Shown piece after piece: positions 16,267 to 20,812 of a stretch of DNA of 64,000 nucleotides. This DNA is from Heliomicrobium modesticaldum Ice1 (GTDB taxonomy: Bacteria; Bacillota; Desulfitobacteriia; Heliobacteriales; Heliobacteriaceae). The notes under the pieces are model-generated. The model worked only from the letters and a program-made list of their open reading frames with translations, was not told where the DNA came from and made no database searches. Numbering within the stretch: the first letter of the stretch is position 1; each line of letters begins with the position of its first letter. The DNA is taken from assembly GCF_000019165.1 (NCBI RefSeq), contig NC_010337.2, positions 227,501-291,500 of the forward strand, written 5' to 3'. Position numbers and translations under genes: made by a program.

Positions 16267-17478
16267 CTACCGGACCGACTGGGCGATGCGAACCGCCTCC
16301 TCTTCCGGGAGAATGCCCGTCAGTGTATAGAATGTCTTGTCACGGCGCCATTCGATGCGGAGCAGCCCCTTGGCAAAGAGGACCAGTTTCCCCGGCGCGC
16401 CGGCGATATCGACGTCGCGCTGAGCCTGAACTTCCCCTTCCTCAGGCGGCAAAGGCGCGGCGGAAAGAGTCAGGCGGAAATAATGCGGCGCTGGCCCGAT
16501 ATAGCGAAGCGACGTGGAGGCGGCAGGCTCCCCCTGCTCCCTCTGTTTGGACGCCAAGAGGGTGTACCCGGGCGGAAGATAGGTGACAACAGGTCCCGGC
16601 TGATTGTGTGCTGACGTGATGGAGACGGGTGAAGTATCTGCAGCGTTTGAATGGGCGCCGTCGGCTGGAACCGGAAGGGCCAGGGCGAGCGGCTGCTCTT
16701 CTTTGGGGAATGAAGCGATATCCTTCCACGAAGGTTTTGCCGCGGCCACCCTTTCCCTCGCCCTTCCCGGCGGCGTCATCTCTACCGGCTCAGGGCTGGC
16801 GGTGACGGGCGCCGCTTGTCCGGTGAAGGCAAGGGCGTTTTCCGAAGTAGTCGCGGAACGCTCCGATACAGAAGCAGAACTATCCGATACAGTCGCAGAA
16901 TTCTCCGATACAGCTGCAGAACGCTCCGATACAGTCGCAGAATTCTCCGATACAGCTGCAGAACGCTCCGATACAGTCGCAGAATTCTCCGATACAGCTG
17001 CAGAACGCTCCGATACAGTCGCAGAACTTTCCGAGACGGTGGCGCCGCCGGCAACAGGCGGCGGCGCGGCAGAGGAAGATTGCTCTACCATAAAGGCGGG
17101 CGCACTCGCTTTGTCGAGTGCGCTATTTCCAACAATGCCGGCGGTTCTCATCCCTGTTGTCATGAAACCGACGCCTTGAAAAGACAAGACGCCCCCCACC
17201 ACCAAAACCGCCGCAGCGACAGCCGCCCGGCGCAAATAGAGCAGAGCAAGCCGCCGCTTCGACTTTGGCTGTTCCAGCAGCGACTCTTCTGACGGCGGCG
17301 CTTCCACCCGTGGCTTTTCCAGCCGGTGCTGCCGGAACTGTGCAGACACCTGCTCCCGCCGTTTTTGCTCCAAGCGGGCCCAGGATTCCTCCAGGGGCGG
17401 AACGGGGGCTTCCGTCACCATCTTGCGGACAGTCTTTTCAATTTGCCGAGCCAGAAACCGCTCAGACAGTGTGTTCAT
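16267..17478 (-). CDS. Putative anti-sigma-type membrane protein with heptad Ser/Thr repeats
   Basis: A 403-residue single-pass protein. The N-terminal ~85 residues are soluble and charged (possible sigma-binding segment), then one TM helix near 92-112 (RRAAVAAAVLVVGGVLSF), then an outer region. The outer region begins with about nine 7-residue repeats of the type SATVSER / SAAVSEN encoded by 21-bp DNA repeats. The C-terminal ~100 residues (GYTLLAS, SLRYIGPAPHYFRLTLS, GAPGKLVLFAKGLLRIEWRRD, YTLTGILPEEEAVRIAQSV) resemble the DUF4367 domain that occurs with ECF sigma operons. It follows the sigma gene and a short Cys protein gene. I infer an anti-sigma or envelope-sensing role; no zinc-binding anti-sigma motif is visible. 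Confidence 0.75.
   Translation of the reverse strand: MNTLSERFLARQIEKTVRKMVTEAPVPPLEESWARLEQKRREQVSAQFRQHRLEKPRVEAPPSEESLLEQPKSKRRLALLYLRRAAVAAAVLVVGGVLSFQGVGFMTTGMRTAGIVGNSALDKASAPAFMVEQSSSAAPPPVAGGATVSESSATVSERSAAVSENSATVSERSAAVSENSATVSERSAAVSENSATVSDSSASVSERSATTSENALAFTGQAAPVTASPEPVEMTPPGRARERVAAAKPSWKDIASFPKEEQPLALALPVPADGAHSNAADTSPVSITSAHNQPGPVVTYLPPGYTLLASKQREQGEPAASTSLRYIGPAPHYFRLTLSAAPLPPEEGEVQAQRDVDIAGAPGKLVLFAKGLLRIEWRRDKTFYTLTGILPEEEAVRIAQSVR
16856..17044. repeat. Nine tandem 21-bp repeats inside the anti-sigma-type gene
   Basis: Nine consecutive units of the form GAACGCTCCGATACAGTCGCA. The central six alternate between GAATTC- and GAACGC-type units, giving a 42-bp higher-order period. 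The period is a multiple of three, so length changes keep the frame, adding or removing seven residues of an extracytoplasmic Ser/Thr-rich stalk. Confidence 0.95.
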
Positions 17479-18321: not shown

Positions 18322-18487
18322 ACGCGCCCCCCTACCCCCTGGCCTGTCCTACAGACATGACGCATCTTTCCAACAGATCTATTTTCGCTACGAACGTGCC
18401 ATCCCCTGCACAAGCAGGAAAAAAAGCGCCTCAAGAAAACATCCCTGCGCAGGTAATAAAGGTCTGGAAATTCGCGCCGAACTTTCA

Positions 18488-19285
18488 TTATTGTTCATTC
18501 TCGAAGGGAACGGAAAATTCCCGCCCGCGCTCTCTCAGCCAGCGCCGGTGCAGGGCATAATCGGGCATACACCGCTCCACCAGGGTCCAGAAGCGGGCAG
18601 AGTGGTTCAATTCCTGCAGATGGCAGAGTTCATGGATGATCACGTAATCCATCACCACCGGCGGGAACAGGACGAGCCGCCAGTTGAAGGAGAGGCTTTG
18701 CTTGGACGAACAACTCCCCCAGCGGGTCTTCTGATCGCGAATGGTGACCTTATCATAGGCGCAGCCGAGCCTCCGAGCGATTTCGCCAACCCGCTGCGGA
18801 ATGAGCGCCTCCGCCTGGGCGCGCATCCATTCACCGGCGACTGGCCGCCACTGCCCCTTGCGCTCTGGCTCCAAGCGGATAAAAAGCCGTCCGGCGTCCA
18901 ATTTGACCCGGCCTTCCGCCGGAACAGGGGCATTATCAGTGATGGCGACGATGTCAATAGGCTCGCCTCGAAAAAAGACTCGCTTTTCCTCGGCGACACG
19001 GGCAAGACGTTCCTTCTCCTGCTGAAGACGCCGCCAATGGCGGACGATCCAGTTCCCCTTCCGTCTCAACACCTCCTGGATCTGATCACCAGTCAATGCG
19101 GCCGGTCCCCGCACTTCGAGCCCCCGATCGGTCAACCGCAGGCTGAGATTGCATCGCCCCTTGCGCCGCGCCACGAGCAAGGGAACGGCCTGGTCGTCAA
19201 AAAGGATTTTCCCGCCTTTGCCCCGGGACAGTTCAATCGCCACCCGTTCGTCTCCCGGCCTTGTTTTTGCCTGTCTCCCCGCCAT
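18488..19285 (-). CDS. YgjP-family (DUF45) zinc metallopeptidase
   Basis: 265 residues. The C-terminal half carries IIHELCHLQELNHSARFW, a HExxH motif with a downstream His/Asn, plus the family hallmark TRWGSCSSKQSLSFNWRL. The N-terminal half (LLVARRKGRCNLSLRL, VLRRKGNWIVRHWRRL) matches YgjP/UTP-pyrophosphatase-type proteins. ATG 19285 has GGAGG 5 nt upstream; the open frame starts ten codons earlier without a site. The physiological substrate is not established. It lies 55-60 nt from, and divergent to, the SOS-controlled small gene. Confidence 0.9.
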   Translation of the reverse strand: MAGRQAKTRPGDERVAIELSRGKGGKILFDDQAVPLLVARRKGRCNLSLRLTDRGLEVRGPAALTGDQIQEVLRRKGNWIVRHWRRLQQEKERLARVAEEKRVFFRGEPIDIVAITDNAPVPAEGRVKLDAGRLFIRLEPERKGQWRPVAGEWMRAQAEALIPQRVGEIARRLGCAYDKVTIRDQKTRWGSCSSKQSLSFNWRLVLFPPVVMDYVIIHELCHLQELNHSARFWTLVERCMPDYALHRRWLRERGREFSVPFENEQ

Positions 19286-19343
19286 GACTTCCTCCATAAA
19301 CATAACAGTCCTCAAAAAAACGCTATAGATGTCGGTTGTCCTA

Positions 19344-19391
19344 TTGACATTGGAACATATGTTTTATATGCTGTCGTTAGAACATCAGTTC
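19344..19391 (+). promoter_or_regulatory. SOS promoter with two LexA boxes
   Basis: TTGACA (19344-19349), 17-nt spacer and TATGCT (19367-19372) form a promoter. A near-consensus LexA box GAACATATGTTT (19353-19364) lies in the spacer, and a perfect GAAC-ATCA-GTTC box (19380-19391) lies at the expected transcription start. GAAC-N4-GTTC is the known Gram-positive LexA operator. The lexA gene itself lies 450 bp away. Confidence 0.85.
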
Positions 19392-19409
19392 CAAGGAGCG
19401 TGTGGAACC

Positions 19410-19637
19410 ATGGAAGCAACCGGTTCTGTTCGGGCGTCAGCGGCCCGTCGAGCGCCTGCCGTCCCTCGATTTTCCGCCAAGCCTGCAGTGCGGCGCCGCC
19501 CCGAATCCCTTACGACCCGAACACAGCAATGGCTCGAATCGGCTGACACCATACGTGAAACAGGGATCATCTACGGCGCCTGCGCCTTCGCTTTTCTCTA
19601 CCTGACGGCGAAAGTCCTGCAAAGTCTCCTGTTCTGA
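19410..19637 (+). CDS. Small SOS-regulated membrane protein, candidate division inhibitor
   Basis: 75 residues from ATG 19410 (AAGGAG 11 nt upstream). The N-terminal ~35 residues are Arg/Ala/Pro-rich and basic (ASAARRAPAVPRFS, AVRRRPESL); the C-terminus is one TM helix (GIIYGACAFAFLYLTAKVL). I know no family for it. It lies behind two LexA boxes and points at lexA. In Bacillus the lexA neighbour yneA is a small membrane division inhibitor; Caulobacter SidA is another. This protein has no LysM domain and its TM is C-terminal, so it would be an analogue rather than YneA. Being LexA-controlled is well supported; the function is inferred. A longer open frame back to 19329 would start upstream of the promoter and is rejected. 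Confidence 0.7.
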   Translation: MEATGSVRASAARRAPAVPRFSAKPAVRRRPESLTTRTQQWLESADTIRETGIIYGACAFAFLYLTAKVLQSLLF

Positions 19638-19700
19638 CAAAGAGACAACCACTGCTTCCCGCGCGAAAGGGAAGCCTCGTCAAAAACAAGGTTCATAGCG

Positions 19701-19727
19701 AGAGCCACCGTGAACAGCGGCGGCTCT
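19701..19727 (+). terminator. Terminator after the small SOS gene
   Basis: Stem AGAGCCACCG / CGGCGGCTCT with one mismatch and a 7-nt loop, followed by GTTTTCGTTTT. A second hairpin GCTTCCC / GGGAAGC lies just upstream near 19654-19675. Confidence 0.75.
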
Positions 19728-19845
19728 GTTTTCGTTTTCCGATGGTGGATTGTTTCGTCAACGCCTGTCAAGGTCGTCTGCGGCGACAAGGCCACCGAAG
19801 CGGAGGCGCTGATCGTATGCTGACTTGTCATCGTAGATGGATCGT

Positions 19846-20628
19846 TTAATGGACATTGCGCAAGACCATCACAACTTTGCCGAGGATCGACAGGTCACGT
19901 ACCCGGATCGGTTCAAGAGCGCTGTTCTCCGGCTGCAATCGCACATGATCGGCTTCCTTGAAAAAGCGCTTGACCGTAGCATCGTCATCGATCAGGGCGA
20001 CCACAATCTGTCCATTGCTGGCATGGGCTTGTCTACGGACGATCACCGTGTCGCCGTGCAGGATGCCGGCATCGATCATGCTGTCTCCTTTGACTCGCAG
20101 ACCGAAGAACTCTCCTTCCCCCAGCATCGACTTGGCGATGGGCAGATAGTCCTCCACGTATTCCGCCGCCAGGATAGGCGAACCAGCCGCCACGTTGCCC
20201 AGCAGGGGAACTTGTAGGAAAGGACCAGCCGCCGACTGACTTCTCCCTTCAGCAGCGTTGTCGCCATCGCCGGGTAGCTGTTCTTCCGCCATTTGACCGG
20301 CCGAAGGACCGGCCAAATGGCTGGTCGTCCACACGGGGGATCCTTCCTCAGAGACGCCGACGGCAGCCATAGCGTCAGGGGGATTGTTGCTCCCCCATTC
20401 GCGCCGTTCCTGCCGATCGGCGAGCACCTCGATCGCCCGGGGCTTCGTCGGATCCTTGCGGATCCAACCCTTCTCTTCCAAACGTTTCAGATAGACATGC
20501 ACCGTCGAACTGGAGGCCCAACCCATCTGCAAGCCGATCTCGCGGACACTGGGCGGATACCCCTTCTCACGGACATTTTTTCGGATGACTTCGAAAACTT
20601 CCCGTTCTTTCGGTGTGAGTTGCATCAT
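19846..20628 (-). CDS. lexA: LexA repressor with enlarged linker
   Basis: SOS repressor and self-cleaving protease. A winged-helix DNA-binding domain (about 1-70: LTPKEREVFEVIRKN, YPPSVREIGLQMGWASSSTV) is joined to a S24 domain with cleavage site Ala148-Gly149 (NVAAGSP), catalytic Ser183 (GDSMIDAG) and Lys220 (ATVKRFF). At 260 residues it exceeds the usual ~205 because the linker (about 72-135) is extended by some 50 residues rich in Gly, Ala and Glu. Two ATGs are possible; the second (20625) is better spaced from GGAGG. It converges on the small SOS gene. An imperfect LexA box in its promoter indicates autoregulation. Confidence 0.97.
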   Translation of the reverse strand: MMQLTPKEREVFEVIRKNVREKGYPPSVREIGLQMGWASSSTVHVYLKRLEEKGWIRKDPTKPRAIEVLADRQERREWGSNNPPDAMAAVGVSEEGSPVWTTSHLAGPSAGQMAEEQLPGDGDNAAEGRSQSAAGPFLQVPLLGNVAAGSPILAAEYVEDYLPIAKSMLGEGEFFGLRVKGDSMIDAGILHGDTVIVRRQAHASNGQIVVALIDDDATVKRFFKEADHVRLQPENSALEPIRVRDLSILGKVVMVLRNVH

Positions 20629-20643
20629 CCCACCTCCACTTCC

Positions 20644-20673
20644 ATATTAGCACGTATGTTCCATTGAACTCAA
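20644..20673 (-). promoter_or_regulatory. lexA promoter with imperfect LexA box
   Basis: On the minus strand TTGAGT (20668-20673), an 18-nt spacer and TAATAT (20644-20649). The spacer contains GAACATACGTGC (20650-20661), one base from GAAC-N4-GTTC, consistent with weak autorepression. Confidence 0.7.
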
Positions 20674-20812
20674 GGGAATTCCAAAGAAACCCGGCGCGGC
20701 CAACCTTTTTCGAACAGCCCCGACCGGGTGTGGTCACGGCGCTGGTCTATGGATCGACGGCATCCTTTCCCTCGGGTTACCTGTTGCTTTTGCCGTGCAA
20801 AGGATCAAAAAA

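Follow-up and report, generated by a model that had tools for sequence, protein, structure and literature searches.

A 75-residue membrane protein encoded beside lexA in Heliomicrobium modesticaldum Ice1 belongs to a family of small proteins, present in many anaerobic bacteria and apparently undescribed so far, whose direct control by LexA is strongly supported by conserved predicted operators in comparisons across genomes, in agreement with the LexA control that an earlier note on this DNA had proposed. The stretch of DNA analysed here (the window) is 64,000 nucleotides long and comes from a genome assembled as one contig of 3,075,407 bases.

A promoter with two LexA boxes beside lexA

The features of the small gene and its surroundings are collected in Table 1. 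The promoter, the box in its spacer and the perfect box at the start site lie in the sequence at the positions claimed by the earlier note, and the 75-residue open reading frame with its C-terminal transmembrane (TM) helix was likewise recovered from the ATG at 19410. As the small gene is on the forward strand and lexA on the reverse strand, the small gene points at the 3' end of lexA, the convergent arrangement that had been described.

Table 1. Coordinates of the small gene, its promoter and the neighbouring genes in the window (position 1 is the first letter of the window).
Feature	Position	Strand	Basis or remark
YgjP-type metallopeptidase, divergent neighbour of the small gene	18488-19315	-	
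-35 hexamer TTGACA	19344-19349	+	sequence; identical in 6/6 Heliobacteriaceae copies
LexA box 1, GAACATATGTTT	19353-19364	+	7/8 of GAAC-N4-GTTC, within the 17-nt promoter spacer
-10 hexamer TATGCT	19367-19372	+	orthologs: TATCCT, TATTCT or TATAAT
LexA box 2, GAACATCAGTTC	19380-19391	+	8/8 of GAAC-N4-GTTC, at the expected transcription start
Shine-Dalgarno AAGGAG	19393-19398	+	immediately 3' of box 2
Small membrane protein gene, 75 aa	19410-19637	+	ATG to TGA; orthologs; purifying selection
Codons 34-50, amphipathic juxtamembrane helix, motif WLExxD	19509-19559	+	column conservation; AlphaFold model
Codons 52-74, single C-terminal TM helix	19563-19631	+	G56, Y64 and polar residue 71 conserved
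lexA (LexA-B paralog)	19846-20628	-	LexA DNA-binding domain and S24 peptidase; convergent with the small gene
LexA autoregulation box, GAACATACGTGC	20650-20661	-	7/8, upstream of lexA-B

The sigma-70-type promoter TTGACA-17-TATGCT has a hexamer score of 10/12, and two promoter-like sites were counted in the small-gene stretch compared with 0.6 in shuffled sequences. One perfect box is not significant by itself. The exact GAAC-N4-GTTC form is not enriched, with 47 occurrences in the genome, a number equal to that of the reversed control, and the flanked CGAAC form showed no enrichment within the window. Genome-wide box counts were dropped as evidence owing to the lack of enrichment of the exact form. 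The pair of boxes is significant because boxes, spacer and offset are conserved across six genomes.

Conservation in the Heliobacteriaceae

The small gene adjoins the same lexA in six of the nine Heliobacteriaceae genomes; a lack of conservation beside lexA, which would have counted against the earlier note, is thus not seen in this family. The six genomes in which the two boxes, their offset of 27 bp and the spacer of 17 nt are unchanged span three genera; in every one of the six promoters a 7/8 box lies 9 nt past the start of the -35 hexamer and an 8/8 box lies at +36, 27 bp from the first. Related loci were found in Heliobacterium mobile, H. chlorum and a Heliobacteriaceae MAG. Two further genomes (G003 and G007) carry LexA-B and lack the small gene, and a third (G006, 99% complete) gave no match to the LexA DNA-binding domain and also lacks the small gene.

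The dN/dS ratios of the small reading frame in four ortholog pairs were 0.29, 0.24, 0.23 and 0.16, and the synonymous/nonsynonymous excess between the window genome (G000) and G002 gave a Fisher p of 5e-5. Judged by these substitution patterns, the small reading frame is under purifying selection, which marks it as a real gene. The N-terminal MEA-x-G and the residues R49, E50, G56, F60, Y64, L65 and Q71 are invariant in the Heliobacteriaceae copies, and these copies form one group (98/99) in a tree of the small proteins that is otherwise mostly unresolved.

A wider family in a second class

A profile built from the six Heliobacteriaceae sequences yielded weak matches elsewhere in the phylum, and two of these early remote matches, L171 and L173, are preceded by a promoter whose start site carries a LexA-type box. 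With the extended profile and a threshold of E <= 1e-3, remote homologs were detected in 59 of 113 genomes of a second class, which we take to be the Desulfotomaculia. In a sample of 398 genomes drawn evenly from the phylum, only the Heliobacteriaceae and genomes of this second class had the family. Alignment with hhalign of the Heliobacteriaceae profile to a Desulfotomaculia-only profile, which was built without Heliobacteriaceae rows, gave a probability of 98.4% and an E value of 6e-15, while controls with shuffled columns reached at most 0.6% and a reversed control 4.8%.

The shared core of the family is WLExEDT-x8-YGxC-x5-Y plus one membrane helix, with W41, L42, E43, D46, T/S47, Y55, G56, C58, Y64 and a basic or polar residue 71 conserved over 31 sequences. 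Across the same 31 sequences the N-terminus varies in length, sequence and charge; members are 55-106 aa long and their N-terminal charge ranges from -10 to +7. The basic, Arg/Pro-rich N-terminus to which the earlier note drew attention is thus a property of the Heliobacteriaceae proteins and not of the family. Searches of family members against Pfam, NCBIfam and PADLOC gave no significant match, and neither the family against solved structures (PDB) nor the Heliobacteriaceae set against PHROGs gave a match. In the open-licence literature no earlier description of the family was found, nor did the literature search return any SOS study of heliobacteria or Desulfotomaculum-like sulfate reducers.

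In the AlphaFold model (pTM 0.34) of the window protein, a disordered N-terminus precedes one helix spanning residues 34-74 that is confidently predicted only from about residue 51, with pLDDT values of 89-95 in the C-terminal TM helix. Conservation within the TM helix shows no clear helical-face periodicity. Insertion of the protein into the membrane is highly probable. Most Heliobacteriaceae copies and the phage-type copies have basic N-termini, which suggests an N-in orientation; in most Desulfotomaculia copies the N-terminus is acidic and a basic residue lies close to the C-terminus.

Evidence for LexA control across the family

Seventy loci were read and sorted by their neighbour genes. 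The 42 chromosomal copies fall into five settings, with the lexA setting of the Heliobacteriaceae as a sixth: beside a DUF523 gene (the 2-thiouracil desulfurase family), a patatin gene, a lysine 2,3-aminomutase-like gene, a ZnDPC-like/phosphomannomutase pair (named by eye), and one unnamed setting. In 40 of the 42 chromosomal copies, spread over several unrelated neighbourhoods, a LexA box and a strong promoter overlap. A box was counted when it matched at least 7/8 positions, lay within the 250 bp upstream and overlapped a promoter; by this definition 8.2% of 391 background windows from the same loci contain one. The separation of chromosomal from phage-type copies was made post hoc, in that neighbour classes were defined after the loci had been viewed, with the boxes playing no part in the definition. 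The two chromosomal exceptions without a box look like reading-frame artefacts of locus extraction.

About half of the boxed second-class copies repeat the layout seen in the window, with one box in the spacer and one at the start site. Many promoters, among them those of L191, L203, L215, L229 and L237, have the spacer box, then the start-site box 27-34 bp away, then a Shine-Dalgarno sequence, and both boxes are present in 27 promoters when 6/8 start-site boxes are counted and the six Heliobacteriaceae promoters are included. No lexA gene occurs in the listed second-class neighbourhoods of boxed copies. Adjacency to lexA, as noted earlier, therefore stands within the Heliobacteriaceae and falls as a feature of the family.

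Of the 85 genomes with a strong LexA hit, 41 have a chromosomal copy, against 2 of the 28 without such a hit, and both of these two are incomplete; the Fisher p value of 8e-5 for this co-occurrence ignores kinship among the genomes, whose counts are not independent because the genomes are related. One genome without a LexA match, G485 (of the class of G451), is 100% complete, and its only match to the family is a frame broken by a stop. In total, the recurrence of the predicted operators makes direct LexA control of the small-gene family strongly supported, and binding of LexA to the two boxes in the window may be strongly inferred.

Phage-type relatives

A further 20 copies lie beside phage-type genes, and only one of them has a box-like match, which equals the background rate. 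These copies directly adjoin DnaD-like helicase loaders and O-like initiators, and five sampled neighbours matched PHROGs, three of them replication-initiation or helicase-loader families, one RecT-like and one of unknown function. Examples of box-less relatives beside RecT-like, helicase-loader and O-like initiator genes are L166, L176, L198, L223 and L231. A tblastn search of phage and plasmid records with three phage-type queries returned no match, and a hit on a viral contig (L175) was discarded, as merely 18 residues were in common and these lay inside another frame.

LexA paralogs and the slot beside lexA

Eight of the nine Heliobacteriaceae genomes carry LexA, each of them with at least two paralogs. 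LexA-A lies at a D-Ala-D-Ala ligase locus and has a Bacillus-like recognition helix, and LexA-B has the variant helix WASSSTVHVYL with its cleavage site and Ser/Lys pair intact. The tree separates LexA-A together with Desulfitobacteriia LexA from LexA-B together with Desulfotomaculia LexA (100/99; the class names are inferred). In the window genome the paralog pair consists of G000:C1:2534009-2534614 (L039) and the lexA of the window, the latter grouping with the Desulfotomaculia LexA. The GAACATACGTGC box of lexA-B is identical in G001 and G002 and has a close variant in G004, G008 and G005, whereas the promoter of LexA-A itself has no box above 6/8. These sequences are most simply read as a joint arrival of LexA-B and the small gene from the Desulfotomaculia system, or as their shared descent with it.

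Outside the Heliobacteriaceae, 10 of 22 lexA loci in the class of the window have a YneA-type TM-LysM gene that is divergent from lexA and has three boxes; the 29 Desulfotomaculia lexA loci that could be read contain no such gene. The window genome contains no small LysM gene, and a YneA elsewhere in it was rejected since its 11 LysM matches all fall in frames of at least 240 aa. From this reading of lexA neighbourhoods there is a circumstantial case that the small gene took a slot beside lexA that YneA had vacated. Where YneA is absent, a protein of about 265 aa with an N-terminal TM and the motif LHRPP...DVYPYL is found divergent from lexA (L119, L121-L124, L128, L132 and L135), and in L131 it lies just beyond YneA.

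Other SOS-type sites

No LexA box was found near the start of recA in eight of the nine Heliobacteriaceae genomes (G008 being counted without a separate reading); among the family recA loci, L094 included, that of G005 has a 7/8 box, GAAAATATGTTC. At L069 (G000:C1, about 2503945) the LexA-type boxes GAATATATGTTC and GAACACCAGTTC lie upstream of a small gene, which with the Y-family-polymerase-like gene that follows is likely a second SOS operon of the window genome. At L084 (G000:C1:3011957 and 3012044) the Bacillus-type boxes CGAACATATGTTCG and CGAACAAATGTTCG lie upstream of small genes that by eye resemble DUF1659/DUF2922, and these genes are possible targets of LexA-A. Downstream of a sigma-70-type factor gene, the window also encodes a 403-aa protein (16267-17478, reverse strand) that contains SATVSERSAAVSEN-type tandem repeats.

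Proposed function and alternative explanations

Inhibition of division in the SOS response is usually the work of small single-TM proteins, which are commonly encoded next to lexA (PMC6851548, PMC13396833). The SOS-induced small membrane proteins known so far intervene at a late stage of division, several of them being predicted FtsW binders (PMC13396833). By analogy with such small SOS membrane proteins beside lexA, a division-inhibitor role was proposed for the window protein, and we give about even weight to the prediction that it acts through the membrane as an SOS checkpoint effector and so arrests division. In an undamaged cell, LexA, most likely the neighbouring LexA-B, would occupy both operators, and with these placed between the -35 and -10 hexamers and at the start site, RNA polymerase could neither bind nor leave. 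RecA filaments would then bring about LexA self-cleavage, upon which the strong promoter would open and the 75-residue protein would be made, with its variable disordered N-terminus, its conserved amphipathic WLExxD helix and its one C-terminal membrane helix. The protein would enter the membrane and block division until LexA recovers, most likely through helix-helix contact of the conserved residues with a membrane protein of the divisome such as FtsW. Our confidence in a cell-division block is moderate, and an FtsW-type target is a weak suggestion. In favour of such a block we count the boxed YneA-type genes beside lexA in sister lineages, their absence from the readable Desulfotomaculia lexA loci, the lack of a small LysM gene in the window genome, and the relatives that adjoin phage replication initiators, phages being known to encode inhibitors of host division. 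Against the model stand the two Heliobacteriaceae genomes with LexA-B but no small gene, the spread of N-terminal charge over the family, and the lack of a clear helical face in TM conservation.

YneA of Bacillus subtilis blocks septal peptidoglycan synthesis through FtsW, and YneA-type genes are likewise small, encode a single TM, have boxes in a strong promoter and lie beside lexA. This shared regulator, size class and location speak for the window protein being a diverged member of the YneA or SosA family, but in YneA the TM comes first with an extracellular LysM domain after it and the gene is divergent from lexA, whereas the window gene is convergent and its product has the TM last and no LysM. 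With an hhalign probability of only 0.3% against class-level YneA-type proteins as well, such membership is highly improbable, and the description of the protein as not YneA-like was borne out. SosA of Staphylococcus aureus is closer in that it has about 77 aa, one TM, no LysM, LexA control and a place beside lexA, but its TM spans residues 10-30 and is followed by an extracellular C-terminal domain (PMC6851548), whereas the TM of the window protein spans residues 52-74 with no C-terminal domain. FtsW is also the target of SidA, a small membrane protein under LexA control in Caulobacter (PMC13396833), which comes from an unrelated lineage. Phages carry host division inhibitors such as lambda Kil, a small protein that stops host division (PMC3961180); Kil inhibits FtsZ assembly through ZipA, whereas the phage-type relatives described here are single-TM proteins.

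A different product, an SOS toxin resembling TisB or DinQ that lowers proton motive force and causes dormancy with no specific divisome target, would also be small, hydrophobic and under the predicted SOS control, and two tight operators would be expected for a harmful protein. We consider this unlikely, as the conserved WLExxDT juxtamembrane helix and the specific TM residues point to a protein partner and the family members, at 55-106 aa, are longer than TisB, which has 29 aa. TisB and DinQ of E. coli are likewise SOS-induced small membrane peptides, the latter being a single-TM peptide (PMC3567139), but they are type I toxins with antisense RNAs, and an Rfam scan of 18400-20800 found no RNA of a known family and no obvious antisense gene was seen. 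A little less unlikely, though still doubtful, is a membrane factor under SOS control that serves some other purpose, such as regulation of a membrane protease, envelope synthesis or DNA replication at the membrane. The phage copies beside replication initiators fit this explanation, as phages might use their copy for their own replication, and so do the diverse, uninformative chromosomal neighbours and the YgjP-type metallopeptidase divergent from the gene in the window. YgjP is however missing beside the gene in G005 and was rejected as a functional partner, not being a constant one, and division arrest is the usual role beside lexA (PMC6851548, PMC13396833). That a spurious reading frame coincides with chance boxes, as the lack of enrichment of the exact motif might allow, is scarcely credible given that frame and boxes are kept in six orthologs and the boxes in 40 of 42 remote chromosomal copies.

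Implications

We tentatively suggest, with rather less than even confidence, that this family, with its soluble part first and TM last and so the reverse of YneA and SosA in layout, is an SOS checkpoint family and the main division brake of the Desulfotomaculia, is shared with phages, and entered the Heliobacteriaceae as a portable module with a Desulfotomaculia-type LexA, replacing YneA there. The phage-side relatives suggest that the same tool is used by host and phage. SOS division inhibitors evolve fast, so that every lineage needs its own discovery, and here one family without a Pfam or NCBIfam model is linked to LexA over dozens of genomes by operator layout. How heliobacteria and Desulfotomaculum-like sulfate reducers halt division after DNA damage thereby becomes testable.
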